64,000 nt of DNA from Luteithermobacter gelatinilyticus. GTDB lineage: Bacteria; Pseudomonadota; Alphaproteobacteria; Sphingomonadales; Emcibacteraceae. The notes beneath the pieces were generated by a model. That model ran no database searches. It was not told the origin of the DNA and saw only the letters and a list, made by a program, of their open reading frames with translations. Of the stretch, positions 5,201 to 58,478 are shown in pieces (positions within the stretch are counted from its first letter, which is position 1; the number at the start of each line of letters is the position of its first letter). Location: contig NZ_CP040517.1 of assembly GCF_005849285.1 (NCBI RefSeq), positions 1,370,501 to 1,434,500 on the forward strand. Direction: 5' to 3'. Made by a program: the position numbers and the translations under genes.

Positions 5201-5779
5201 GATTTCGTCGCCAAACAGGTCGATCCGCAGCGGATTGTCATATCCCGGCGGAAAAATATCCACCAGGCCGCCACGAATGGCAAAATCACCGTGTTCCATC
5301 ACGGTGCTGGCACGGCTGTACCCGTTGGTGGATAGAAAACGGGTCAATTCCTCAAGGTCGATCTGGTCCCCCGGCTTGGCGCTGAACGATACATTCTGCA
5401 TAACGGCCCGTTCGGGGACACGCTGACTTGCCGAACCGATTGTGGCGATCACCAGAGTTTTTTGTGCCGATGACGACTCCAGCCGGGCCAGGCGGCTTAG
5501 TGTGGTCATGCGTTCTGCTACAATGTCCTGATGCGGAGAAATACGGTCATAGGGCAGGCAGTCCCAGGACGGGAACCGCAGGACCTCCACTTCCGGTGCA
5601 AAATAGCCGACCAGTTCGGCCATATTTGCCAGGCGGGTGCCGTCACGGGCGATATGCAGGTGCAGGTTCTGTCCGCATTCCTCGAGAAGCTGTGCCAGCA
5701 GCATCGCGTCATAGCCTTCGGGCACATGGCTGAGGAGTAGCGGAATGTCGGACGAAATAAGCTCGCGCAGGTTTTTCAC
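2279..5779 (-). CDS. mfd: Transcription-repair coupling factor Mfd
   Basis: ATP-driven DNA translocase that removes RNA polymerase stalled at lesions and recruits UvrA. At 1166 residues it has the full family length. The N-terminal UvrB-like part includes PSWDCLPYDRISP (about 75-90). The CarD-like RNA polymerase-binding domain carries GDLVIHMDHGVGRY near residue 500. RecG-like helicase motifs follow: GDVGFGKTEVALRAAF (Walker A), DEEQHFGVSHKERLK, LTATPIPRTLQLAM and QLRGRVGRS. The start overlaps sdhE by ATGA (5776-5779), suggesting translational coupling. The TAG stop lies inside a palindromic repeat. Confidence 0.98.
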   Translation of the reverse strand: MKNLRELISSDIPLLLSHVPEGYDAMLLAQLLEECGQNLHLHIARDGTRLANMAELVGYFAPEVEVLRFPSWDCLPYDRISPHQDIVAERMTTLSRLARLESSSAQKTLVIATIGSASQRVPERAVMQNVSFSAKPGDQIDLEELTRFLSTNGYSRASTVMEHGDFAIRGGLVDIFPPGYDNPLRIDLFGDEIDVIREFDALSQRSGAKVAQINLVPMSEVFLTEDSIRHFRARYVAEFGTVLGDDPLYDAVTEGRKHQGMEHWLPLFHQTLETLFDYLPGCTITLDHLGQEALEDRLSAIQDYYLARKSDYEKTPAGSLTATVYKPLAPELLYLTAQEWAHISETRRIHSFSPYGAPEEVPHLDFEGKIGRDFAPERNNRDVNVYDALRQHVVSLFQRGKKVFLASYSIGARDRLSAVLKDHGMTRHRLVENWPEGDQLPDGALGLIVLPLEHGFEADDIVLISEQDILGDRLIRKVRRSRRAENFISEASALSPGDLVIHMDHGVGRYEDLKTIEVMGAAHDCVMLTYHGGDKLYVPVENIEVLSRYGAEGTHVQLDKLGGTAWQSKKARLKKKLLEMADELIKVAAERELRKGPVITPSDGLYEEFCARFPYAETEDQLRAIQDVIEDLGSGRPMDRLICGDVGFGKTEVALRAAFLVVMAGYQVAIVTPTTLLARQHYKNFVDRFKDLPVRIGHLSRLVPARDQKQTKEELARGACDIVVGTHALLGKTIQFKNLGLLIIDEEQHFGVSHKERLKKLRHDVHVLTLTATPIPRTLQLAMSGMRGLSLIATPPVDRLAVRTFILPMDFLVVREALLREHYRGGQSFYVCPRIADLKEIADFLTEHVPEVKFVVAHGQMPPSEIEDIMHAFYEGRYDVLLSTTIVESGLDIPTANTMIIHRADMFGLAQLYQLRGRVGRSKVRAYAYLTLPPKRIPTATAEKRLQVLQALDTLGAGFTIASHDMDIRGAGNLLGEEQSGHIKEVGLELYQHMLEEAVAQARNGITGDDMDHNWSPQINLGAAVLIPERYVPDLNLRMSLYRRVAELDDSEDEIDAFGAELIDRFGPLPEEVEHLLSVIRIKYFCRKAGIEKIEAGPKGAILSFRKDRFANPAGLIDFISKQNVVAKLRPDHKLVYVRKWDQIENRLKGCYILARALAKIAGQTV

Positions 5780-6093
5780 TTTACAATCTTCAGATAGTCC
5801 ATACCCCGTAGCAGGGCCATAACGTCGTGATTAAGATGTTCGGGCGGTTCCCGGTCGGAGGTGATCCAGGCCACCAGGTCGGAATCTGCCTCGCGCAACA
5901 GCTCTTCATAACGATCCAGCTGTTCTTTGCTCAGCTTTGCCAGATATGTATCAGCAAAACTCCCCAACAGCAGGTCCGCTTCCTTGATCCCCCGGTGCCA
6001 GCTGCGAAATTTCAGTCGTTTACGACGGGTTTCCGGACTTTCGTTTGGATCTATTTCAGGTTCGATGAAACCAGGCGCGTTAAAACGGGTCAT
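5776..6093 (-). CDS. sdhE: Succinate dehydrogenase assembly factor SdhE (DUF339)
   Basis: Small cytosolic protein that promotes covalent FAD attachment to the succinate dehydrogenase flavoprotein. It is 105 residues long. The family signature RGIKEADLLLGSFADTYL (about 34-51), containing the conserved RGxxE, is intact, followed by the usual acidic helical C-terminus (EELLREADSDLVAWI). It overlaps mfd by four bases, an order common in alphaproteobacteria. recG is divergent on the other side, so the promoter for sdhE-mfd probably lies in 6094-6229. Confidence 0.92.
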   Translation of the reverse strand: MTRFNAPGFIEPEIDPNESPETRRKRLKFRSWHRGIKEADLLLGSFADTYLAKLSKEQLDRYEELLREADSDLVAWITSDREPPEHLNHDVMALLRGMDYLKIVK

Positions 6094-43441: not shown

Positions 43442-43660
43442 TTTCCTTCCTTATGTTATTTTTCTTTTTTGGGCTATTTTTTACGCGTTATACGCAGCAG
43501 ACAATCAAACTCCTCTCTCATATTTCTAGGCGTTATAGAACGCAGATACACAATTTTGTGAAGTGGTTTGACCGGGGCGGCTGTTGTGTGGTTTGTCCGC
43601 TGTGTGGTATTTATGGCAGGGCATAAGGATGCACCAACATCAATATAACGAGGAATGACA

Positions 43661-43915
43661 ATGAGCACACCAATGAAAACAGCCGGTCTGGCTATGGCGG
43701 TTGCCGCTGCCGGATTCTTCGCCGCCGCGCCTGCTACGGTTACGGCCGGGGAAAAGGGGAATGTCAAATGTTATGGCGTTAACGCGTGCAAAGGGCATAA
43801 TGACTGCAAAGGCGCCAATAATGCCTGTGCCGGACACGGGTCCTGCAAAGGGCAGGGTTTTGTGCTAATGTCCGAAGACGCCTGTAAGAAAGTTGGCGGA
43901 GAAGTCAAAAAATAA
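43661..43915 (+). CDS. bufA2: Bufferin-type RiPP precursor, BufA2-like
   Basis: An 84-residue secreted peptide. The signal peptide covers about 1-29 ([19 protein letters not shown]). The mature part has six cysteines in [31 protein letters not shown] and [10 protein letters not shown], matching the BufA2 type of bufferin. In characterised bufferins an MNIO enzyme converts core cysteines to thiooxazole-type heterocycles, and the exported peptide binds copper. The enzyme genes follow at 44048 and 44917. The ATG at 43661 is six bases after AGGA; the ATG two codons earlier is too close. A repeat and a terminator separate it from bufB. Confidence 0.85.
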
Positions 43916-43940
43916 ATTCTGCCGGGGGAGCCCCCAAAGG

Positions 43941-43980
43941 CTAGAGTGAATTGTGTATAGGTTGGCTCAATTCACTCTAG
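43941..43980 (+). repeat. Palindromic repeat copy 5 (best copy, reference)
   Basis: A 40-bp element: perfect 13-bp inverted arms CTAGAGTGAATTG and CAATTCACTCTAG around the 14-base core TGTATAGGTTGGCT. It lies 25 bp after the bufA2 stop and directly before the terminator at 43982. Other copies are at 2244, 17421, 23773, 27531, 48376, 53110, 55851, 58504 and 60614. Confidence 0.92.
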
Positions 43981-43981
43981 G

Positions 43982-44019
43982 GAATAGCGGCATCCCGGCG
44001 GGACGTCGCTATTCTTTTT
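43982..44019 (+). terminator. Terminator/attenuator between bufA2 and bufB
   Basis: Outer stem GAATAGCG / CGCTATTC (8 bp) enclosing a second stem TCCCG / CGGGA, followed by five T. Between the precursor and its modifying enzyme genes, it probably stops most transcripts after bufA2 and lets a minority read into bufB-bufC. Confidence 0.82.
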
Positions 44020-44047
44020 GGCCGCTTTCTTTGATATAGGGGAGCAG

Positions 44048-44920
44048 ATGACGCAGAAACCTTTTCTTGGTTATGGTCTGGGGCTGAGACCGGATCATTT
44101 CGAGGCCATTCTTAACGATACACCTTCTTCTGACCGTCCGTCCGTTGACTGGTTTGAAATCATTTCGGAAAATTTTATGGTGCCCGGCGGCAAACCACGT
44201 CATTATCTGGAGCGCATCCGGGAGCGGTATCCCCTGGTCATGCATGGGGTATCCCTGTCTATTGGCTCCACCGACCCCCTGAATATGGAGTATCTGGAGG
44301 ATCTGAAAGATCTGGCAAGGACGGTGAACCCGCAATGGATTTCGGATCATTTATGTTGGACGGGGCAGGATGGGCTCAATCTGCATGATCTGATGCCGTT
44401 GCCCTATACAGAAGAAAGCCTGAACCATGTGGTCAGGCGAATACGCCAGGTGCAGGATTACCTGGAACAGCATATCCTTATCGAGAATGTATCCAGCTAT
44501 CTCACTTACAATCAGTCCGACATGACAGAATGGGCGTTTTTGCGCGAAATTGCCGAACAGGCGAATTGTTATATCCTGCTGGACATTAACAATATTTATG
44601 TCAGCGCCTTTAATCATGACTTCGATCCGGAAGACTATCTGAAAGCCATGCCGAAAGAACGTGTTTATCAGTTCCATCTCGCGGGCCATGAACATAACGG
44701 CGATTATATTGTAGATACCCATGACCACCCGGTCGCTGCAGAGGTCTGGGCCTTATACCGGCGGGCGCTGGAACATTTCGGGCCGGTATCCACCATGATC
44801 GAACGGGATGACCATATCCCCCCCTATGAAGACCTGCTGGCAGAATTGACCCAGGCCCGTCGCATTGCACAAGAAGTGGTCGGATCACAAAAGGGTATGA
44901 GGCAGGAGGCGACGTCATGA
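44048..44920 (+). CDS. bufB2: MNIO family RiPP-modifying enzyme (DUF692, BufB)
   Basis: A 290-residue TIM-barrel multinuclear non-heme iron enzyme. Conserved elements are FEIISENFMVPGG, VMHGVSLSIGSTDPLN, WISDHLCWTG, LIENVSSYL, LLDINNIYVSAFNH and QFHLAGHEHNGDYIVDTHDH, supplying the His, Asp, Glu and Asn ligands of the iron centre. It should install oxidised heterocycles on cysteines of the BufA2 precursor. The ATG at 44048 follows AGGGGAG. It overlaps bufC by ATGA, so the two are coupled. Confidence 0.92.
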   Translation: MTQKPFLGYGLGLRPDHFEAILNDTPSSDRPSVDWFEIISENFMVPGGKPRHYLERIRERYPLVMHGVSLSIGSTDPLNMEYLEDLKDLARTVNPQWISDHLCWTGQDGLNLHDLMPLPYTEESLNHVVRRIRQVQDYLEQHILIENVSSYLTYNQSDMTEWAFLREIAEQANCYILLDINNIYVSAFNHDFDPEDYLKAMPKERVYQFHLAGHEHNGDYIVDTHDHPVAAEVWALYRRALEHFGPVSTMIERDDHIPPYEDLLAELTQARRIAQEVVGSQKGMRQEATS

Positions 44921-45726
44921 CGTCATTGAGCCGGCTTCAAGCGTTGTTCAGACAAGCGGTCACGGCAGAGGCCGGGGAGGCGGCTCATGAGTTTCTGGGA
45001 GAAGTTGCCCCTGACGGTCGGATCGGGCCGGAAAAGCGGCTTCATATTTATGCCCACGCTTATCAGGCGCGGCTTCGGGAAACCTTGCAAAAGGATTATC
45101 CTGTGCTGCAGAGCATGTTGGGAGAGGCGGCATTCGGGACATTGTGCGATGCCTATGCCCGGGCCCACCCCTCCCGGCATCCTTCCCTGCGGTTTTACGG
45201 ACAGCATCTTTCCGCCTTTTTGCGAAAGGAGCCCCCTTATAGAAATTTGCCGGCCCTTGCCGAAATGGCGGCGTTTGAATGGGGATTTGTAAACGTTTTC
45301 GATGCCCCTGACGCATCGGCTGTTTGCGTGGAAGATGTCGCCCGTATTCCGCCGCCGGCGTGGACGACCCTGCGCCTTGGGTTTCATCCCTCCTTATCCC
45401 TTCAGCAGACAAAATGGAATGTAACGGCCATATGGTCTTCGGTTAGCCGTGAGGAGCAACCTGTTCTGCCCCAGGAACTGGCGGCACCGGTTATTGTCAT
45501 ACAGTGGCGACGTGATCTGGTCAGTTATTTCCGTACGCTGGATCCGGATGAGGCGGAGGTGCTGCCTCTGGCGCTTCGTCAGGAAAGTTTTCCCGTCCTG
45601 TGTGAACAGCTGTTCCGTGAACAGGGGGAACAAGCCCCGTTAAGGGCGGCTGAACTTCTCAAACGCTGGGTTTCAGAAGGGCTTGTCGTGGCGCTGGATT
45701 ATGCCGACGTCGCGACACCTCACTAA
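44917..45726 (+). CDS. bufC2: DUF2063 family RiPP partner protein (BufC)
   Basis: A 269-residue soluble protein. The N-terminal DUF2063 domain (about 5-105) contains RLQALFRQAVTAE, GPEKRLHIYAHAYQARLRET and LQKDYPVLQSMLGEAAFGTL; RFYGQHLSAFLRKEPPYRNL and ALAEMAAFEWGF follow. In bufferin systems BufC works with BufB, probably as a precursor-recognition partner. It is annotated as DNA-binding in some databases, for which I see no support. It begins inside the end of bufB. Confidence 0.88.
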   Translation: MTSLSRLQALFRQAVTAEAGEAAHEFLGEVAPDGRIGPEKRLHIYAHAYQARLRETLQKDYPVLQSMLGEAAFGTLCDAYARAHPSRHPSLRFYGQHLSAFLRKEPPYRNLPALAEMAAFEWGFVNVFDAPDASAVCVEDVARIPPPAWTTLRLGFHPSLSLQQTKWNVTAIWSSVSREEQPVLPQELAAPVIVIQWRRDLVSYFRTLDPDEAEVLPLALRQESFPVLCEQLFREQGEQAPLRAAELLKRWVSEGLVVALDYADVATPH

Positions 45727-45834
45727 AAGCTCACAAGAGTTCACCAAAAATGTGATGAGCTGTGATTTTCCTTTTTCAAGGTGTGGTGGAACTATAGGTC
45801 CCGCAAATGGCAACAACTTTGAAGAGGATACACA

Positions 45835-46110
45835 ATGTCAAAGCTCAAAGAAAAAACCACATCTGCACTTCTGATCTCCGCCATGGCGACGGCAGTCAGC
45901 CTCACGGCGGCACCGGGCGGGGCTCTGGCTGGCGATAAAGCGGTCGAGAAATGTTACGGTGTGGCTAAAGCAGGGAAAAACGACTGCGCTACTGCCACAA
46001 GCTCCTGTGCCGGGACGTCCAAGGTAGATGGACAGAAAGACGCCTGGATTTATGTTCCCGAAGGCACATGCAGCAAGCTGGTCGGGGGCAGCACGTCCCC
46101 CAAAAAATAA
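45835..46110 (+). CDS. bufA1: Bufferin-type RiPP precursor, BufA1-like (DUF2282)
   Basis: A 91-residue secreted peptide. The signal peptide covers about 1-32 ([20 protein letters not shown], then GGALA). The mature region has four cysteines: [32 protein letters not shown] and [11 protein letters not shown], the DUF2282 pattern of BufA1. GAAGAGGA precedes the ATG by six bases. It starts the second cassette 108 bp after bufC2. No terminator separates it from its enzyme gene. Confidence 0.9.
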
Positions 46111-46124
46111 TCTCCCGGTCCGCA

Positions 46125-47033
46125 ATGATGGTATCCGATCCTATGACGGGCCCGATGCAGTGGGCACAAGAGACAATTCCGGCATCGGCCGGAATTGGCC
46201 TCAAGGCCCAGCATTATCAGGACATTCTTGCAGAAAAACCCGCCATTGGCTGGGTGGAAGTTCATACGGAAAATTATATGGGTGAGGGGGGCGCCGCCCA
46301 TTATTACCTGGGTAAGATCCGGGAAGATTATCCCTTGTCGCTGCATGGCGTGGGGTTGTCCCTGGGATCAGCCGATGGGCTGGATCAGGACCATCTGGAC
46401 CGGATCAAGCAGGTGATGGACCGATATGATCCGGGGCTGATTTCGGAACATGTTTCCTTCAGCACCATCAATGGGCAGTATTTCAACGATCTTCTTCCCC
46501 TGCCTTATACGGAAGAGGCGCTGAAAATTTTATGTGAAAACATAATGCGATGCCAGGACCATCTGGGGCGCAGACTCCTGGTGGAAAACCCATCTACCTA
46601 TCTGGAATACAACGAAAGCCATATCCCCGAATATGAGTTTCTCAATGAAACCGTTGCTCGCACCGGTTGTGGCCTGTTGCTGGACATTAACAATATTTAC
46701 GTGAGTTGCAGCAATCACGGCCGGGAATGTCACGAGTATCTGCGCCAGATCCGTCCGGAGGCGGTGGCGGAATATCATTTGGCGGGCCATACGGAAAAGG
46801 TCTGGCGCAACCGGGTCTTGCGCATAGATGATCATGGGGCCAATGTCTCGCGGGAGGTGTGGGAGCTGTATGAAAAGACACTGGAGTTGATGGGCCCCCG
46901 ACCCACCTTGATCGAATGGGATACCAATGTGCCCTCTCTGCTCACACTCTTGCAGGAAGCAGAGCGGGCCGAACACTTCCTGGGGGCGGCAAAACACTCT
47001 CCGGGGCCTGCCCCTCTCGGGAGGCTGAAATGA
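46125..47033 (+). CDS. bufB1: MNIO family RiPP-modifying enzyme (DUF692, BufB), second copy
   Basis: A 302-residue relative of the enzyme at 44048, with motifs in the same order: VEVHTENYMGEGG, LHGVGLSLGSADGLDQDH, LISEHVSF, LVENPSTYLEYNESHIPEYE, LLLDINNIYVSCSNHG, YHLAGHTEKVWRN and LIEWDTNVPSL. The presumed substrate is the BufA1 peptide just upstream. Only 14 bp separate it from bufA1 and no strong ribosome site is visible before the ATG at 46125, so translation may be coupled or weak. The C-terminus (KHSPGPAPLGRLK) overlaps bufC by ATGA. Confidence 0.92.
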   Translation: MMVSDPMTGPMQWAQETIPASAGIGLKAQHYQDILAEKPAIGWVEVHTENYMGEGGAAHYYLGKIREDYPLSLHGVGLSLGSADGLDQDHLDRIKQVMDRYDPGLISEHVSFSTINGQYFNDLLPLPYTEEALKILCENIMRCQDHLGRRLLVENPSTYLEYNESHIPEYEFLNETVARTGCGLLLDINNIYVSCSNHGRECHEYLRQIRPEAVAEYHLAGHTEKVWRNRVLRIDDHGANVSREVWELYEKTLELMGPRPTLIEWDTNVPSLLTLLQEAERAEHFLGAAKHSPGPAPLGRLK

Positions 47034-47797
47034 AACTTGGCCGGCTTCAGATTGCGTTCCGGCAGGCGCTTCTGAGTGGTGACCCTGCGGCCTTGGCCCG
47101 ATATGTCAAAGGGGCCAAAGCCGAAGCCGGGGAAAGGGTGCAAATTCATCAAAATAATGTCCTTCTCTCCCTCAAAGCAGCGCTGGCGGACAATTTTCCT
47201 GTGGTGCACAAGCTGGTTGGGGATGATTTTTTTCAGGCGTTGAGTGGGGAATATATTCGCAAATTTCCCCCGCAGTCCCCGGTTCTTGCGGAATATGGCG
47301 CCAATTTTCCGACATTTCTGACAACCTTCCGGGGGGCGAAGGATCACCCTTATCTTGCAGATATGGCCCGGTTTGAACGGGGTATCATCCGTGCTGCCCG
47401 AGCCCGGGATGCAATTCCGCTGGATCCGGCGGGGATAGAAGGGGAGGGGTTTGCGCATCTTGAGGAAATGGTGTTGCACTTTCTGCCTTCTGTAGAGCTG
47501 TTTGAAAGTCCTTATCCCATTCTTGAGATCTGGCGCAGCAACCAGCCGGACTATGCAGGAAATGACCGGATATCACTGGATCAAGGGGGGAGCCGTCTGG
47601 CGGTCTATCGGCCGCATCTGGAGGTGCTTTTTTTGCGTTTAGAGGCGGCGAATTTTGACTTTATCCGCTTGTTGAAAAAACCGAAACCGCTTGGGCAGGC
47701 GGTGCGGGATATCCTGGCGGATTACCCGGATTTTGACCTTCAGGGTGCGCTCGCATTGATTTTGGGCGCTCGGCTTGTCGAAGCCTATTCTTATTAG
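47030..47797 (+). CDS. bufC1: DUF2063 family RiPP partner protein (BufC), second copy
   Basis: A 255-residue protein. The DUF2063 domain is at about 3-95: KLGRLQIAFRQALLSGD, ERVQIHQNNVLLSLKAALAD, NFPVVHKLVGDDFFQALSGE and SPVLAEYGANFPTFL. The C-terminal half (LPSVELFESPYPILEIWRSN; GSRLAVYRPHLEVLFLRLE) follows the plan of the first copy but is clearly diverged, so the two cassettes are not a recent duplication. GAGGCTGA lies before the ATG at 47030, and the gene overlaps bufB by four bases. Confidence 0.88.
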   Translation: MKLGRLQIAFRQALLSGDPAALARYVKGAKAEAGERVQIHQNNVLLSLKAALADNFPVVHKLVGDDFFQALSGEYIRKFPPQSPVLAEYGANFPTFLTTFRGAKDHPYLADMARFERGIIRAARARDAIPLDPAGIEGEGFAHLEEMVLHFLPSVELFESPYPILEIWRSNQPDYAGNDRISLDQGGSRLAVYRPHLEVLFLRLEAANFDFIRLLKKPKPLGQAVRDILADYPDFDLQGALALILGARLVEAYSY

Positions 47798-47827
47798 AAG
47801 CCTGTTCTTATGAAAAGGGAAAGAGCA

Positions 47828-48337
47828 ATGATACATAAGCTGGACAAAACGATTCACTATGGGAAAAAAACCATTCAGATGGCGGGGTGTATCCCGGAAA
47901 GTATGATCTTACTGTTGGCCCGTCTGGGCATGGGAGGGATCTTCTGGCGGTCAGGCATGACCAAGATCACCCTTGAACAGGATGCGGCAAATTTCACGCT
48001 GGACCAGTTCCTTCAGGTCATCACCCTGAAATGGCAGGTTTCCGACTTCACCTATGTATTGTTCGAAGGTGATTATGATGTGCCGGTTCTGCCACCGGAG
48101 CTGGCGGCGCATATGGCGTTGCTGGCTGAATTGACTTTGCCGGTATTATTGCTGATTGGTCTGGCCAGCCGGCTGTCGGCCTTGGCGATGTTGGGTATGA
48201 CCGCAGTGATTCAGACGTTTGTCTATCCCGGGTTATGGCCGGATCATTCCTTGTGGGCCGCGGCGCTGTTATTGCTGATTGCCAAAGGTAGCGGCAAGAT
48301 TTCGGTCGATCATCTGATTGCCCGGAAATTGAAATAA
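47828..48337 (+). CDS. DoxX family membrane protein of the bufferin locus
   Basis: A 169-residue protein with four predicted membrane segments. MILLLARLGMGGIFWRSGMTKI is the DoxX first helix; AHMALLAELTLPVLLLIGLA and SALAMLGMTAVIQTFVYPG follow. DoxX proteins are common last genes of bufferin operons (BufD); a redox or respiratory link is proposed but not established. The ATG at 47828 was chosen because GGAAAGAG precedes it; an ATG at 47810 is possible. It lies 30 bp after bufC. Confidence 0.85.
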   Translation: MIHKLDKTIHYGKKTIQMAGCIPESMILLLARLGMGGIFWRSGMTKITLEQDAANFTLDQFLQVITLKWQVSDFTYVLFEGDYDVPVLPPELAAHMALLAELTLPVLLLIGLASRLSALAMLGMTAVIQTFVYPGLWPDHSLWAAALLLLIAKGSGKISVDHLIARKLK

Positions 48338-48375: not shown

Positions 48376-48404
48376 TAGAGTGAATTGTGAAGAGGTTGAT
48401 TTTA
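48376..48404 (+). repeat. Palindromic repeat copy 6 (right arm mostly lost)
   Basis: Left arm and core TAGAGTGAATTGTGAAGAGG, then GTTGATTTTAG, where about ten bases of the right arm seem deleted. It lies between convergent doxX and sufU-like genes; the sufU-like stop codon (TAA, 48402-48404) falls at its right edge. Confidence 0.65.
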
Positions 48405-48869
48405 GCCCGTCGTCTCCCGCGCCTTTCGGGCGGCAAGAGAAGTACTGTCCAGGGCTTTTAGAATCGCCTGAAGGGGAAGGGTCACACAAGTATGGCGGTT
48501 CTTATGGGGCGCTACGGGCGCAAACATCGAAAAGTCCTGCCATTTTTCTGCAGGCCATGAAACACTGTCCAGTGTGTTTTCTTCCAGACCCGCCATCAGT
48601 ATGGCGCAGACCTCGCGAAGCCGAGCTGAGGGCTCTCCTGCCAAATGTTGTCCTAACAGGGAAGCACTGGCCTGACATAACACGCAGGCCCGGGTTTCAT
48701 GACGAAAATCATGAATAATATCCTGTTCGGCGTTGAGATAAACTGTAATGCGGTCACCGCACAGGGGGTTGTGCAGGGTGTAATGCAGGATAGCATTCTC
48801 CAGCGCCCCATGGCCGACCGCCAGCGCCGCCTGTTTCAGGATTGATTTTTGATATAACGCGTCGATCAT
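48402..48869 (-). CDS. SufU/NifU-like iron-sulfur cluster scaffold protein
   Basis: A 155-residue protein. Three conserved cysteines are in NPLCGDRITVYLN (about 35-47), ACVLCQASASLLGQHLAGEP (about 61-80) and KNRHTCVTLPLQAILKAL (about 123-140), the SufU pattern. SufU-type proteins act in Fe-S assembly, in some bacteria as a zinc-dependent sulfurtransferase for SufS. No suf operon is nearby. It is convergent with the bufferin locus; linkage to copper handling would be speculative. Confidence 0.85.
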   Translation of the reverse strand: MIDALYQKSILKQAALAVGHGALENAILHYTLHNPLCGDRITVYLNAEQDIIHDFRHETRACVLCQASASLLGQHLAGEPSARLREVCAILMAGLEENTLDSVSWPAEKWQDFSMFAPVAPHKNRHTCVTLPLQAILKALDSTSLAARKARETTG

Positions 48870-49128: not shown

Positions 49129-50745
49129 ATGGTAAAAACAATCTCCCAAGGGATGGTCAGAAATTTCATGGGCCATTCACCCGAGTGGTACAAACTGACC
49201 ATTATCGGGTTTCTTATTTTGAACCCTATGCTGTATATTGCACTGGGCCCGGAGACTGGCTCTTATATTGTCGGCTGGATCCTGGTTCTGGAATTTATTT
49301 TCACGCTGGCCATGGCGCTGAAATGTTATCCCCTGATTCCGGGCGGGTTATTGGCGCTCGAAGCGTTGTTTATGGGCCTGACCAGCCCTACCAGCGTTTA
49401 TCATGAAATTGAGCATGGTCTTGAGGTGATCCTGCTGCTGGTCTTTATGGTGGCAGGCATTTATTTCATGCAGGGCCTGTTGCTGTTTACCTTTACCAAG
49501 GTGCTGCTCAAAGTCCGCTCAAAGGTGCTTTTGTCGTTCCTGTTTTCGTTTATGGCGGCGGTACTTTCCGCCTTTCTGGATGCGCTGACGGTGACCGCCG
49601 TGGTGATCACGGTTGCGGTCGGATTTTATTCCATTTACCACAAGGTGGCCTCCGGAAAGACCTTTCATCATGAACATGATCATTCTTCTGATCACAGCGT
49701 TCAGGAACTGCACCGCAGCGACCTGGAACAGTTCCGGGCCTTTTTGCGCAGCCTGATGATGCATGCCGCTGTGGGGACGGCACTCGGCGGGGTGTGTACG
49801 ATAGTGGGTGAACCGCAAAACCTGATCATTGGCAGTGTCGCCGGATGGAGTTTTGTGGAATTCTTTATCCGCATGGCGCCTGTGAGCCTGCCGGTTCTGG
49901 TGTCCGGGCTTATAACCTGTATGGTGCTGGAAAAAATTAAGATCTTCGGTTATGGCACCGAACTTCCTGTCGCGGTCCGCAATATTCTGGAAGAATTTGA
50001 TGCAGAACAGTCCAGCAAACGTACCCTGAACGAAAAAGCGTCCCTTATCGCCCAGGCGGTTGTGGCCGGGTGGCTGGTGATCGGACTGATGTTCCATCTG
50101 GCGGCTGTAGGATTGATCGGGTTGTCAGTGATTGTGCTGCTGACGGCGTTTAATGGCGTGACCGAAGAACACCAGATTGGCAAGGCCTTTGAAGAAGGGC
50201 TGCCGTTTACGTCTCTGCTGGTGGTCTTTTTTGCTGTGGTCGCGGTTATTAATGACCAGGAACTTTTCCGCCCCGTCATTGACTTTGTTCTTAGTATGGA
50301 TACCCATAGTCAGATCGCAGGTTTTTATATTGCCAATGGCGTGTTGTCAGCCATCAGCGATAATGTGTTTGTGGCGACGGTGTATATCAAGGAAATCAAA
50401 AATGCCTTGGATCTCGGTCAGATTGCTCGTGATTCCTTTGATCTGATGGCGGTGGCGATCAATACGGGGACCAACATTCCCAGTGTGGCAACTCCGAACG
50501 GGCAGGCCGCTTTCCTGTTTCTGCTGACCTCTGCGCTTGCGCCTCTGATCCGTCTATCCTATGTGCGCATGGTTATTATGGCGCTGCCTTATACCATTGT
50601 TATGACTCTGGTGGGTCTGATTGCGGTCTTGACTGTGCTGGAGCCGGCGACGGACTACATGTATGAAGAAGGTCTTATCCAGCACCACAGTGAGTATGAA
50701 GCTTCACACCAGGACGAAAATGCCAAAGGGGCGACGGAACACTGA
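49129..50745 (+). CDS. nhaB: Na+/H+ antiporter NhaB
   Basis: A 538-residue inner-membrane protein with about 12 membrane segments, exporting Na+ in exchange for protons. The N-terminus [19 protein letters not shown] and the internal blocks [20 protein letters not shown] and [15 protein letters not shown] are characteristic of NhaB, as is [20 protein letters not shown] in the C-terminal half. A His-rich cytoplasmic loop ([11 protein letters not shown], about 184-194) is present. It is monocistronic and closed by a perfect terminator. It fits a salt-adapted host. Confidence 0.95.
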
Positions 50746-53109: not shown

Positions 53110-53149
53110 CTGGAGTGAATTGTGCATAGGCTGGCTCAATTCACTCTAG
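53110..53149 (+). repeat. Palindromic repeat copy 7
   Basis: CTGGAGTGAATTG, core TGCATAGGCTGGCT and right arm CAATTCACTCTAG, one arm mismatch. It lies between the tRNA-Arg terminator and the iorA start, 24 bp before the iorA ATG. Confidence 0.9.
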
Positions 53150-53629: not shown

Positions 53630-55854
53630 CCCGTATTATGAATGTCAGCCGCCGTCACCTGATCAAATCTGCTGTTGTTGGCGGTCTGGCCCTGAGCGCT
53701 GAAGTGAGCGGATTTTCGCTGATGCGGGCTTTTGCTGGAGAAAAGTCCCTTACCCCGAATCTTTATGTGGTCATAGATCCGGACGGTAGCGTACATATCA
53801 CGGCGCATCGCTCAGAAATGGGACAAGGTACGAAAACCGGCCTGCCGCAGGTGGTGGCGGATGAGCTGGGCGCGGACTGGAGCCAAGTCAGAATCATTCA
53901 GGCCATTGGTGATTCGCGCCTGGGGGACCAAAATACGGACGGATCGCGCTCAGTGAGGCGTTTTTATGAAAAAATGCGGGAGATGGGCGCGGCAGCGCGG
54001 CAGATGATGGAGCGGGCCGCAGCGAGGGAATGGGGCGTTCCCGTGGAAGAGGTCCATGCGGATAACCACCGAATTTTGCATAAAAAGTCAGGCAAAACGA
54101 TGCCTTTTGGAAAGGCGGCAGTTCTCGCGGCTGATGATGCCGTACCCGGGCGGGAGGAGCTGAACTTTAAGTCACCAGCGGACTTCACGTTGATTGGAAA
54201 ACCGGTCAAAATCTATGATCTGGACGACATGGTCAGCGGTCGGGCCATTTATGCCCAGGATCTGCATAGGGAAGGCATGCTGGTGGCGGTTATTCAGCGG
54301 CCGCCGGTTTTTGGGGCCACGGTCAAACAGTATGATGCGGCGCAGGCGCTGAAAATTGCGGGTGTGGAAAAAGTGATTCGCATGCCGGATGTGCAGACCC
54401 CTACGGCCTTTACCCCGTTGGGGGGCGTGGCGGTGCTGGCCAAAAACACCTGGTCTGCCATGAAAGGCCGCGAGGCGCTGGAAATTGAATGGAGTTCCAG
54501 CCCCCATGATCGCCATGACAGTGCGGCGTATCAGCAGGAGCTGATGAAAACGGCGCAGAAAGCCGGTTCTTTTGTGGGCCGTCATGACGGTGATGTGGAT
54601 CAGGCGCTGGCAAAGTCTGATAAGGTCGTTGAGGCAGATTACCTGATGCCGTATTACGCTCATGCGCCCATGGAACCGCCGGCGGCCTTGGCTCATGTCA
54701 CAGGAGAGACGGCGGAAATCTGGGCCTGTGTGCAGGACCCGCAATCCACACAGGATGTGGTGGCGGCGACCCTGGGGCTGAAAAAGGAGAATGTCACCGT
54801 ACATGTCACGCTCCTTGGCGGGGCTTTCGGGCGCAAATCCAAATCCGACTTTGTGGCCGAAGCGGCGTTTTTGTCCCAGCAAACAGGAAAACCCGTCAAA
54901 GTGGTCTGGACCCGCGAGGATGACATCCGTCATGATTATTATCACGCCATCAGCGCCCAGCATCTGAAAGCCGGGCTGGATAAAAATGGCGCGGTGATCG
55001 CCTGGAACCATAATTCGGTTTTCCCCACCATCGGATCCATTTTCAGCCCCGGCGCGGATCAGCCCCTGCCGTTTGAGATGGGGTTGGGATTGGTGGATCT
55101 GCCCTATAACATTCCCAATATCCGGGCCGAAGTAGGTAAGACCCAGGCCCATATCCGGATCGGTTGGGTCCGCTCGGTCTGCAACATTCACCACGCCTTT
55201 GCCGTAGGCTCGTTCATGGATGAACTGGCCCATGCCGCCGGCCGCGATCCACGAGATTTTCTGCTTGAACATCTGACCCCGGACCGGGAAATTCCGGTGG
55301 ACAGCTTCAACGCCAAATTCAATTATGGTGAAAAACAGACGGATTATCCTTTTGAGACGGCGCGTCTCAAACATGTTGTCCGACTGGTCACCGACAAGGC
55401 CGGTTGGGGTCGGAAACTCCCCAAAGGGCATGGCTTGGGGCTGGCTTGTCATTACAGTTTTCTCAGCCACATTGCCGTTGTGGCCGAGGTGGCGGTCAAG
55501 GATGGCGCGGTGACGATCCCGCGGGTGGATCTGGCGATTGATTGCGGGCGGTATATCAATCCTGACCGGGTGATTGCCCAGATGGAAGGGTCCATTATTT
55601 TTTCCATATCCCATGCCCTGACCTCGGAACTGAGCATTAAGGGTGGCAAGGTGGAACAAAGCAACTTTCATGATTACCGGCTGGCGCGTTGTGATATGAC
55701 GCCGGATATCCGGGTTCATCTGGTGGACAGTGACGATAAGCCACGCGGGGTGGGCGAGCCCGGTGTACCGCCGGTTACCGCCGCCATTTGCAATGGGATT
55801 TTTGCGGCCACCGGCAAACGTATCAGAAAGCTGCCGATAGCTGAGCCGTTTTAG
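53626..55854 (+). CDS. iorB: Molybdopterin-binding subunit of an IorB/aldehyde dehydrogenase-type molybdoenzyme
   Basis: A 742-residue large subunit. A Tat signal is at the N-terminus (SRRHLIKSAVVGGLALSA), so the complex is probably exported folded to the periplasm. Cofactor motifs are HRSEMGQGTKTGLPQVVADE, LLGGAFGRKSKSDFVAEAAF and GVGEPGVPPVTAAICNGIF, the last holding the catalytic Glu. Such enzymes hydroxylate N-heterocycles or oxidise aldehydes; the substrate is unknown. No XdhC-type maturase gene is adjacent. The stop TAG (55852-55854) is formed by the repeat arm. Confidence 0.92.
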   Translation: MTRIMNVSRRHLIKSAVVGGLALSAEVSGFSLMRAFAGEKSLTPNLYVVIDPDGSVHITAHRSEMGQGTKTGLPQVVADELGADWSQVRIIQAIGDSRLGDQNTDGSRSVRRFYEKMREMGAAARQMMERAAAREWGVPVEEVHADNHRILHKKSGKTMPFGKAAVLAADDAVPGREELNFKSPADFTLIGKPVKIYDLDDMVSGRAIYAQDLHREGMLVAVIQRPPVFGATVKQYDAAQALKIAGVEKVIRMPDVQTPTAFTPLGGVAVLAKNTWSAMKGREALEIEWSSSPHDRHDSAAYQQELMKTAQKAGSFVGRHDGDVDQALAKSDKVVEADYLMPYYAHAPMEPPAALAHVTGETAEIWACVQDPQSTQDVVAATLGLKKENVTVHVTLLGGAFGRKSKSDFVAEAAFLSQQTGKPVKVVWTREDDIRHDYYHAISAQHLKAGLDKNGAVIAWNHNSVFPTIGSIFSPGADQPLPFEMGLGLVDLPYNIPNIRAEVGKTQAHIRIGWVRSVCNIHHAFAVGSFMDELAHAAGRDPRDFLLEHLTPDREIPVDSFNAKFNYGEKQTDYPFETARLKHVVRLVTDKAGWGRKLPKGHGLGLACHYSFLSHIAVVAEVAVKDGAVTIPRVDLAIDCGRYINPDRVIAQMEGSIIFSISHALTSELSIKGGKVEQSNFHDYRLARCDMTPDIRVHLVDSDDKPRGVGEPGVPPVTAAICNGIFAATGKRIRKLPIAEPF

Positions 55855-55890
55855 AGTGAATTGAGCCAACCTATTCACAATTCACTCTAG
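55851..55890 (-). repeat. Palindromic repeat copy 8 (reverse orientation)
   Basis: TTAGAGTGAATTG, core AGCCAACCTATTCA and CAATTCACTCTAG: arms near perfect, core inverted relative to the copy at 43941. Its first TAG is the stop of iorB; hisI ends 13 bp beyond its right arm. Confidence 0.9.
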
Positions 55891-56417: not shown

Positions 56418-56882
56418 ATGATGCAAACTGCCGCCAAACATGATCATGACAAATGTATCGAGCAGGCCCTGAGCGCCGCCCGGGATATCTGCGACCGTCG
56501 CGAGATGCGGTTTACCCCGCTCCGCCGCAGAGTTTTGGAGCTGGTCTGGCGGGGGCACAAGCCGGTGACGGCCTATGAGCTACTGGATCTTTTGAGTGTG
56601 GGGCAGAAAAAAGTTGCCCCGCCGACCGTTTATCGTGCCTTGGATTTTCTCATAGAACAGGGACTTGTGCACCGGATTGAATCCCTCAACGCTTTTATCG
56701 GCTGTCCGGACCCAGCGCACCGACATCAGGGCCATTTTCTGATTTGCAAAAAATGCCGGACCGTTGCCGAAGTCACTGAAACGGCTCTTGATCGGCACAT
56801 TACCCGAATAGCCGCAGATCATGGCTACAGCAGCGAACAGAGCATGCTCGAAGTCATGGGCCTGTGTGCCAATTGCCGGTGA
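56418..56882 (+). CDS. zur: Fur family zinc uptake regulator Zur
   Basis: A 154-residue zinc-sensing repressor. The helix-turn-helix lies in RREMRFTPLRRRVLELVW and APPTVYRALDFLIEQGLVHR. Structural zinc is bound by ICKKCRTV and GLCANC, with a regulatory site around AHRHQGHFLICK. Assignment to Zur rather than Fur rests on motifs plus znuC and znuB directly downstream. I looked for a Zur box in 56320-56417 and found no convincing palindrome. Confidence 0.88.
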   Translation: MMQTAAKHDHDKCIEQALSAARDICDRREMRFTPLRRRVLELVWRGHKPVTAYELLDLLSVGQKKVAPPTVYRALDFLIEQGLVHRIESLNAFIGCPDPAHRHQGHFLICKKCRTVAEVTETALDRHITRIAADHGYSSEQSMLEVMGLCANCR

Positions 56883-56896
56883 ACGGGGCTGAACTG

Positions 56897-57694
56897 ATGC
56901 AGGGCCGGGCGGAGCCAATACTTGAGCTTGAGGGTATTTCCCTGTCCTTTCGGGGACGGGAGGTGCTCTCGAATGTGAGCCTGAGTGTCATGGCGGGGGA
57001 AATTGTGACCTTGATCGGCCCCAATGGCGCCGGGAAAAGCACCCTGATGAAAATTGCTCTGGGGCTTGTGCAGCCGGACAACGGACATGTCCGTCGCCGA
57101 AAGGCGCTGCGGATCGGGTATATGCCCCAGAAAGTGATGCTGGATGACAGCCTGCCGCTGACGGTGCAGCATTTTTTAAGACTGAGGCCCGGCACCACAG
57201 CCCAACAGATGGAACGAGTTCTGCACCAGGTCAGACTTATGGCCCGGATTGACAACCCTGTCCAAAATCTTTCAGGGGGGGAAATGCAACGGTTGCTCTT
57301 GGCCCGGGCGCTTTTGGGACAGCCCGATTTTCTGGTGCTTGATGAGCCGGTGCAGGGGGTGGATATTACCGGTCAGGAAGAATTGTACCGGCTGATCACC
57401 ACTATACGGGACGAAACGGGATGCGCTGTTCTGATGATTTCCCATGATCTGCATATGGTCATGGCCGGGGCGGATCAGGTGATTTGTCTGAACGGCCATA
57501 TCTGCTGTCAGGGCGCCCCGGATTCCGTGCGGGATCATCCCGAATACAGGGCGTTGTTTGCGCCCGGGGTGGAAAATGTCGCCCTCTATACCCATCATCA
57601 TGATCATCACCATGACAGCCGGGGAAATGTTGTGCCCGGTTGCCTGCCGGATCATAACCCGTCGCAGACGACAGGGCCAAAGAAACATGATTGA
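56897..57694 (+). CDS. znuC: Zinc ABC transporter ATP-binding protein ZnuC
   Basis: A 265-residue ABC ATPase. Walker A GPNGAGKSTLMK, Q-loop GYMPQK, signature NLSGGEMQRLLLARAL, Walker B FLVLDEPVQGVD and H-loop MISHDLH are intact. A C-terminal histidine-rich tail (THHHDHHHD) is usual for ZnuC and may sense zinc. ATG at 56897 is used; a GTG at 56879 overlapping the zur stop is possible. It overlaps znuB by eight bases. Confidence 0.93.
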   Translation: MQGRAEPILELEGISLSFRGREVLSNVSLSVMAGEIVTLIGPNGAGKSTLMKIALGLVQPDNGHVRRRKALRIGYMPQKVMLDDSLPLTVQHFLRLRPGTTAQQMERVLHQVRLMARIDNPVQNLSGGEMQRLLLARALLGQPDFLVLDEPVQGVDITGQEELYRLITTIRDETGCAVLMISHDLHMVMAGADQVICLNGHICCQGAPDSVRDHPEYRALFAPGVENVALYTHHHDHHHDSRGNVVPGCLPDHNPSQTTGPKKHD

Positions 57695-58478
57695 GGATTT
57701 TATTCTGAATGCTCTTATTGCCGGCAGCCTGGTGGCTCTAGTGGCGGGTCCTCTGGGGTGTTTTCTGGTCTGGCGGCATATGGCCTATTTCGGCGACACC
57801 ATTGCTCATTCCGCGCTAATGGGGGTGGCGCTGGGTGTGGCGTTGGGGACGGCAAGTCCGCTGATTATGGTGGCGGTTTGCGCCGTGGTGGCGCTGCTGT
57901 TGCTGGTATTGCAGCAGGACCGTAGCCTTTCCTCGGATACCTTGCTGGGTATTCTGGCTCACAGCGCCTTGTCTATCGGTCTGATCGTTATCTCACTGCA
58001 ACCGGCTGTCCGGCAGGACATGATGTATTATCTTATTGGGGATATTCTGGCCGTAAACGCCGAGGATATTACCGGTATTCTGATCATGGCGCTGTTGGTG
58101 CTTGCCGGGCTATTGCTTATCTGGAAGTCTCTGCTATCCATTACCGTTCATGAGGACCTGGCCCGGGTGGAGGGCGTAGCCGTGGGACGCACCAAGGCCG
58201 CCTATATGCTGATGATTGCGGTCCTGGTCGCGTTGGCAATGAAAGTGATCGGCGTGCTTCTGGTTACTGCATTGATGATTATTCCCGCCGCTGGGGCGCG
58301 CAACATCACCCGCACGCCGCTTGCCATGACGTTGATTTCGGCGCTGATCGGGGTGATTTCGGTTTTTGCCGGAATCACTTTGTCTGGAACCTGGGATGTT
58401 CCAACTGGTCCGGCCATCGTGCTGGCGGCTGTGGCTATCTTTTCTGCGTCAAGAATTTATTATTTTTTATCAAAATAA
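57687..58478 (+). CDS. znuB: Zinc ABC transporter permease ZnuB
   Basis: A 263-residue inner-membrane permease with about eight hydrophobic segments. Family features are GPLGCFLVWRHMAYFGDTIA, HSALMGVALGVALG and VGVLLVTALMIIPAAGARN-like text (seen as IGVLLVTALMIIPAAGARN). The ATG at 57687 gives the usual start MIEDFILNAL. No znuA solute-binding protein gene is adjacent, so the periplasmic zinc-binding component must be elsewhere. Confidence 0.93.
   Translation: MIEDFILNALIAGSLVALVAGPLGCFLVWRHMAYFGDTIAHSALMGVALGVALGTASPLIMVAVCAVVALLLLVLQQDRSLSSDTLLGILAHSALSIGLIVISLQPAVRQDMMYYLIGDILAVNAEDITGILIMALLVLAGLLLIWKSLLSITVHEDLARVEGVAVGRTKAAYMLMIAVLVALAMKVIGVLLVTALMIIPAAGARNITRTPLAMTLISALIGVISVFAGITLSGTWDVPTGPAIVLAAVAIFSASRIYYFLSK

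Follow-up and report, generated by a model that had tools for sequence, protein, structure and literature searches.

Why do cells keep two periplasmic copper buffers, what does DoxX do beside them, and, where the genes for both buffers lie back to back, do they make one system or two neighbours? A locus at 43661-48337 in a stretch of 64,000 nucleotides (nt) of Luteithermobacter gelatinilyticus DNA (NZ_CP040517.1, 1,370,501-1,434,500 of the forward strand; the genome is a single contig of 3.15 Mb) lets one ask this. That stretch is the window, all coordinates are positions in it, and G and L codes denote genomes and loci or stretches compared with it. Open reading frames together with Pfam and NCBIfam profiles give seven co-directed genes, bufA2-bufB2-bufC2 and then bufA1-bufB1-bufC1-doxX, each set having a bufferin precursor (six-Cys, then four-Cys of the DUF2282 type), an MNIO (DUF692) enzyme and a DUF2063 partner. 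That they are two different bufferin cassettes, as an earlier note on this DNA had proposed, is borne out by the cut-offs that precursors and MNIOs pass (Table 1). We consider it probable that this is a composite locus, in which two complete, separately evolved bufferin modules are switched on together by one regulator that also serves msrPQ, with DoxX going with the Buf1 module. The class of product (bufferins, or captophorins) is known and the arrangement uncommon; what is new is the regulatory hypothesis, that of a regulon probably rewired.

Gene identities, lineages, synteny, the association of DoxX, the shared upstream motif and the lack of NrsF and of sigma-F-type promoters were all computed. 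Both DUF692 enzymes fall inside the bufferin-maturase family, by NF050167 and in the tree, and not outside the clade as the earlier note had allowed might be found; both have the His/Asp/Asn/Glu columns that are invariant in >95% of 154 bufferin MNIOs. The NCBIfam equivalog cut-offs for HvfB, HvfC and HvfX (EGKCG, oxazolin type) are not reached by the window proteins (HvfB 286 and 242 against 360, HvfC 55 and 56 against 142, HvfX 37 against 80), and profile searches of the 3.15 Mb genome gave no MNIO beyond these two and no second DUF2282 gene. BufC1 has the DUF2063 and RRE-type domains of PME type 1 and, going by its predicted structure (pLDDT 92.0), appears to fold like known MNIO partner proteins: the best PDB matches in a fold search are 3dee and the partner-sized chain of the TglHI complex (8hi7_A, 8hci_A), of which the MNIO is a separate chain. 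That the TM-scores are moderate, 0.55-0.65 by query length, speaks against the likeness; a PDB sequence search with BufC1 gave no match up to E 1.

How old is the division between the two sets? For its study 185 MNIO open frames from 179 stretches were labelled by the precursor upstream (110 Buf1-type, 45 Buf2-type, 25 with none, 5 unclear), and in a FastTree tree of 183 of them, in which 109 Buf1 and 45 Buf2 enzymes make up the 154 counted (24 with none and 5 unclear were not), the label switches exactly once, the Buf2 enzymes forming a clade with support 95-96. A smaller IQ-TREE analysis of 53 rows agrees with the two-lineage split (L043 and L176 have identical MNIOs in the trees). The window MNIOs belong to two old, separate lineages. 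In alignment column 321, inferred by mapping through 3bww to correspond to FonB Phe250 and BufB2 Asp251 (PMC13097082), Buf2-type enzymes have Asp (33/45) or Ala (11/45) and Buf1-type enzymes Thr (71/109) or Asn (15/109); the window has Asp255 in BufB2 and Thr in BufB1, and Asp255 may be the position mapped to Cys-Lys selectivity. The fourth Cys of the window's own BufA2 is followed by Ala (NACAG) in place of Lys, which the orthologues in G001 and G003 have (NACKG).

The pairing of the cassettes also appears to be old, a syntenic feature of the window's family and a point absent from the earlier note. MNIOs occur in 15 of 32 genomes of that family, and the two-cassette spacing, in the same order and with ~2.1 kb between MNIOs, is found in the window genome, G001 and G003, that is in three of the family's five genera; the genes that come after the pair in G001 and G003 (sufU-like, nhaB, csp and DUF192) are those of the window too. 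G016 and G006, of G003's genus, have only A1B1C1X at the same place. In a sister genus (L093, L099, L100, L106, L107, L108) the sufU-like gene lies directly 3′ of A2B2C2 with no Buf1 set or doxX between, and a CitMHS-type transporter takes the place of nhaB (L093, L106, L108). A mechanosensitive-channel gene is on the other flank in L092, L093, L097, L099, L100, L104, L105, L106 and L109, not in the window or L091. The enzymes of the family's locus cluster with SH-aLRT values of 91 (Buf2) and 93 (Buf1, including G002 and L037), both below the tool's 95 mark, and the off-locus Buf1 enzymes of the sister genus (L094, L101, L102; two genomes) cluster elsewhere with support 99. The simplest reading is an ancestral pair from which one or the other module was lost in place; gain of a module in place is the alternative.

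Elsewhere the arrangement is rare. MNIOs are present in 155 of 387 genomes of a class sample, where 36 besides the window's have at least two, and among these 36 a pair lying within 5 kb is confined to G096 and G194, both of one genus, and runs in reverse order. A phylum sample has MNIOs in 176 of 397 genomes, and in its 30 further multi-MNIO genomes no pair lies within 5 kb, the shortest distance being 10.8 kb (G468). Outside the window's family, then, adjacent pairs were seen in 2 of 66 sampled multi-MNIO genomes; many of the sampled genomes are drafts, so pairs split across contigs are missed. Both cassettes occur in one of 59 named loci found with BufB1, a Burkholderiales metagenome-assembled genome (L084, ~1.2 kb apart). 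Where loci were read (33 of the 36 class genomes), at least 15 have both types, two of them adjacent, and 15 is a lower bound because at least one four-Cys precursor (L119) escaped the labelling.

Whose is DoxX? The earlier note had a single gene at the end, which stands, and raised its sharing by both cassettes as a question; a shared DoxX is rejected because DoxX follows, within 2 kb downstream and on the same strand, 94 of the 104 Buf1-type MNIOs with enough sequence and only 1 of the 42 Buf2-type (6 Buf1-type and 3 Buf2-type with too little were left out). No doxX was found where Buf2 stands alone in the sister genus, and in Caulobacter a DoxX gene ends only the CCNA_03363-03366 operon, which begins with a DUF2282 gene (PMC8224329). 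DoxX belongs to the Buf1 module and is not common to both cassettes; the answers on DoxX and on ancestry are well supported.

The case for joint control begins with a motif, T[AT]CAC-N5/6-TGTGA-N5-TGTGA, whose last element is degenerate at some sites. It stands ahead of both precursors in the window, G001 and G003 and ahead of bufA1 in G002, at distances of about 50-140 nt. Among its matches in the genome with up to two mismatches is a site before a gene for MsrP (NCBIfam 465/207 bits) that is followed by one for MsrQ (173/130), both equivalogs; this connection with msrPQ is another point absent from the earlier note. A matrix trained on seven buf sites, each scoring ≥25.7, was run on the msrP upstream regions of the window's family (30 loci, 29 of them usable; the partial L263 was dropped). 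Scored against their own Markov-resampled versions, 27 of the 29 show a site significant at p<0.05, and for 20 p is <0.01. The second control was a set of 170 further upstream regions from the family, cleared of 27 that overlapped buf or msrP promoters, whose best member scores 13.2: of the msrP loci 28 come up to its 95% mark, 25 to its 99% mark and 20 to its maximum, a last count that overstates the number of events because the msrP loci are relatives and not independent. Beyond the window's family and its sister family 4/101 A1 and 3/36 A2 promoters score above 13.2, L061, L071 and L173 among them. These seven include both precursors of the reverse-order tandem L095, from another alphaproteobacterial family, with the like motif of bufA1 in reverse orientation, and bufA2 of L096, whose bufA1 upstream sequence is too short to score. 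The motif could serve as bait for finding its regulator.

In Caulobacter the sigma-F regulon consists of the two buf operons and YedY/MsrP, with a GTAACC-N16-CGAA promoter and the anti-sigma factor NrsF (PMC3511200), and its members (buf2, buf1, msrPQ) are copper-induced in all conditions tested (PMC8224329). Both window buf promoters have four mismatches to that box (p 1.0), and NrsF, the one of the two proteins that was searched for, occurs in a single genome of the family's 32 (G013, not the window genome); the locus does not look sigma-F/NrsF-controlled. The box is matched with 0-1 mismatch by every promoter scored in a sister family belonging to the same order, 5 for A2 and 7 rows for A1 (6 distinct, L059 and L191 being apparently the same contig); loci holding both precursors there have a sigma-F-type promoter on both, and none of these A1 or A2 promoters has the new motif. 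Further afield, 30/101 A1 and 6/36 A2 promoters match with 0-1 mismatch, against 5/537 random 250-mers. Within the window's own family G013 is a useful internal contrast: its NrsF gene is ~1 kb from a buf MNIO, and at its bufA1 there is a sigma-F promoter one mismatch short of exact, with a 15-nt spacer (p 0.017), and no new motif. Off-locus Buf1 cassettes of the sister genus likewise lack the motif where their upstream regions were scored (L094, L101). In L190, L208, L209 and L210, where bufA2-MNIO-DUF2063 is divergent to doxX and a DUF2282 precursor gene, a sigma-F promoter that is exact or has one mismatch is present on each side. On balance we lean slightly towards a replacement, in which whatever reads CAC-N5/6-TGTGA-N5-TGTGA took over buf2, buf1 and msrPQ from sigma-F/NrsF in the window's family; sigma-F control is known for all three in Caulobacter and, in the sister family, is indicated at the buf genes. 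If so, both tandem cassettes would act as one copper/oxidant response, and the same genes under sigma-F or under another motif across families would be a natural experiment in regulon rewiring. An OmpR-type regulator is a reasonable guess because in Escherichia coli CusSR induces msrPQ under copper (PMC9302797).

How might such a locus work? Each precursor would be bound by its own MNIO/DUF2063 pair and some of its Cys residues oxidized to 5-thiooxazoles; export by Sec to the periplasm would follow, with binding of excess copper there, both by analogy with relatives (PMC12452194, PMC13097082). We infer the chemistry, the part of copper, the binding of a regulator and the dosage discussed below. 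DoxX would work with the Buf1 module, and one regulator, probably acting on the motif ahead of bufA2, bufA1 and msrPQ, would induce both chelators along with the repair of methionine sulfoxide, in a single periplasmic response to metal and oxidant. As effectors it would then have the genes of the Caulobacter sigma-F regulon, under another switch.

Several results weigh against one dedicated regulator. The motif was first chosen by eye from three loci and then scanned; its exact core, TGTGA-N5-TGTGA, occurs twice in the genome (once at the buf locus) and three times in the reversed control, no excess, and for the longer form, allowing up to two mismatches, the counts are 26 and 14. The best msrP site is on the opposite strand in 6 of the 29, G003 included. 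Of ten held-out family buf promoters 6 reach the 95% mark, 5 the 99% mark and 4 the control maximum, those short of 95% being L106, the cassette of G013 (L103) and the off-locus Buf1 cassettes L094 and L101. Neither precursor of L084, the Burkholderiales tandem, has the motif, and there is no regulator beside msrP (L264) or the buf locus among the Pfam-searched neighbours. Might the motif, then, be the site of a global regulator of CRP/FNR type, or an unrelated repeat? Its TGTGA/TCACA half-sites have what we take to be a resemblance to those of CRP, 7 of 137 loci outside the family exceed 13.2, one further genome site precedes a multidrug-type RND operon, and the exact count does not exceed that of the reversed control; yet the half-site polarity is TCAC...GTGA with a further direct repeat and not TGTGA-N6-TCACA, and the distance of the best control from the training sites, with 20 of 29 msrP sites at or above that control, argues against both versions, which we regard as unlikely.

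That the cassettes are sub-specialized for different metals or inducers and adjacent by chance is in keeping with each occurring alone at the same place (Buf1 in G016 and G006, Buf2 in the sister genus), with four Cys in one precursor and six in the other, and with MerC-bufferin fusions, which suggest other metals for some bufferins (PMC12452194). Different inducers, raised in the earlier note, are nonetheless made unlikely because the same motif lies 5′ of both precursors and, in the sister family, sigma-F-type promoters are on both; with adjacency maintained in three genera and both operons copper-induced in Caulobacter (PMC8224329), sub-specialization seems decidedly improbable. A recent duplication, for which the common gene order of the two halves might be pleaded, can hardly be entertained: it is rejected because the copies are so little alike (MNIOs 41% identical, DUF2063 proteins 30% over 178 residues, precursors 43% over 54) and the enzymes are in separate clades, and the earlier note's view of diverged pairs holds. 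More of a case can be made, doubtful as it remains, for one enzyme pair serving both precursors, with one cassette's enzymes partly redundant. In four same-order genomes (G156, G594, G581, G745) the only MNIO is of Buf2 lineage and has a DUF2282 precursor beside it; in the last three of these the DUF2282 gene and doxX are divergent from bufA2-MNIO-DUF2063, and the 13 kb read of G156 has no six-Cys precursor. Either lone Buf2 enzymes accept DUF2282 peptides or those peptides stay unmodified, and the latter would remove the point. Against shared enzymes stand the exact tracking of precursor type by enzyme lineage over 154 labelled enzymes and the failure of FonBC to process an NACKG-type substrate (PMC13097082). 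At L098 5886-7290, in a single-MNIO genome, a Buf2-lineage MNIO has an adjoining four-Cys DUF2282 precursor, and no six-Cys one was found. With both kinds of bufferin in a single strain, at one old locus and apparently in one regulon, the pairing of enzymes with precursors could be examined in a clean setting.

The nearest known system is that of Caulobacter vibrioides, with two bufferin-type operons (CCNA_03363-03366, alone in having DoxX, and CCNA_03001-02999) which the earlier note placed at separate loci, in agreement with the locus tags in PMC3511200 and PMC8224329. As there, msrPQ is in the regulon with the bufferins, here by prediction from the motif; unlike there, with two loci, sigma-F promoters and NrsF, the window has one locus, no sigma-F-type promoter or NrsF and another conserved motif. 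The precursor-MNIO-DUF2063-DoxX core is that of the Buf1 (DUF2282) clusters of PMC12452194, in whose consulted sections tandem precursor genes and no double full cassettes are mentioned, whereas here the core is joined to a full Buf2 cluster. That cluster in turn resembles the Buf2 clusters, or captophorins, of PMC13097082 in its Cys-Lys precursor and in the Asp of its MNIO at the position mapped to selectivity, and differs from those described there in the adjacent Buf1 module and in the Ala after the fourth Cys. E. coli CusSR/HprSR control of hiuH-msrPQ also ties msrPQ to copper stress, the available account naming no bufferins, and its palindromic box CATTACAAAATTGTAATG loosely resembles, by eye, ACACAATTTTGTGA (PMC9302797). 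In the literature on bufferins, MNIOs, DUF692 and MsrP with copper, covered mostly at title and abstract level and without the original bufferin paper, no description of a Buf2-Buf1 double cassette or of this motif was found.

Table 1. Positions of the locus features within the window and what each assignment rests on
Feature	Position	Strand	Basis
Operator-like motif 5′ of bufA2, TACAC-N5-TGTGA-N5-TTTGA	43547..43571	+	counterpart in L091, L092
bufA2, six-Cys Cys-Lys bufferin precursor	43661..43915	+	NF050166 BufA2 80.9 bits, cut-off 60
REP-like palindrome between bufA2 and bufB2	43941..43980		core AGAGTGAATTGTG
Terminator-like hairpin and T run after bufA2	43981..44019	+	fold
bufB2, MNIO of Buf2 lineage	44048..44920	+	NF050167 MNIO_BufB 384.8 bits, cut-off 310; PF05114 384 bits; trees
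bufC2, DUF2063 partner protein (PME type 1)	44917..45726	+	PF09836 69.6 bits, cut-off 27.2
Operator-like motif 5′ of bufA1, TTCAC-N6-TGTGA-N5-TGTGA	45740..45765	+	counterpart in L091, L092, L097
bufA1, four-Cys DUF2282 bufferin precursor	45835..46110	+	PF10048 88.2 bits, cut-off 22.4
bufB1, MNIO of Buf1 lineage	46125..47033	+	NF050167 MNIO_BufB 387.8 bits, cut-off 310; trees
bufC1, DUF2063 plus RRE-type partner protein	47030..47797	+	PF09836 87.3 bits, cut-off 27.2
doxX, goes with Buf1 cassette	47828..48337 (or from 47810)	+	PF07681 50.5 bits, cut-off 23.6
SufU/NifU-like gene, downstream synteny marker	48402..48869	-	PF01592 33.1 bits; neighbour in relatives
nhaB, synteny marker	49129..50745	+	PF06450 818 bits; neighbour in L091, L092, L104, L105

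The bufA2 reading frame opens at 43655; the ATG at 43661, with a better-spaced GAGGA, is preferred and is also the start in the earlier note, and the N terminus looks, by eye, like a signal peptide. The gap that follows bufA2 may matter for dosage. L091 and L092 likewise have a hairpin and T run there, and the bufA1-bufB1 gap in the three same-order family loci is only short; the fold of 43910-44055, palindrome included, has -62.2 kcal/mol (z -4.6). More generally the median precursor-MNIO gap is 78 nt for Buf2 and 29 nt for Buf1. A simple hairpin finder was positive after 8/45 Buf2-type and 1/110 Buf1-type precursors, and because it missed the window's own hairpin folding z-scores against resampled sequence were used: over the first 75 nt after the precursor the median is -1.9 for Buf2 and -0.6 for Buf1, with values below -2 after 21/45 and 18/110 respectively. 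Since the bufA2 gap has this hairpin and T run, and Buf2 gaps are longer and more structured, transcription may terminate in part after bufA2, favouring precursor over enzymes, and the hairpin would give more BufA2 than enzyme. A consensus scan gave 6 promoter-like matches (4.4 in shuffles) and 11 terminator-like ones (5.5), two of the latter at the bufA2 hairpin.

The palindrome core AGAGTGAATTGTG has 212 exact copies in the genome against none for the reversed pattern, and 12 in the window with up to one mismatch, including 43941-43980, 48377-48389, 53112-53147 and 55853-55888; a near copy of the palindrome lies between the motif and msrP. One exact TGTGA-N5-TGTGA, at C1:1081704 (L211), is without a proper left CAC arm and near an SDR-like gene, by eye, and was put down to chance. 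In one genome only (L222/L269) a motif-like site at L269 ~5600-5820 stands before an RND operon of MexEF type, beside which is a MarR/HpaR-type regulator. At 56418-58478, 8-10 kb downstream of the buf locus and not joined to it, the window has a FUR-family regulator and an ABC-3 metal-uptake permease.

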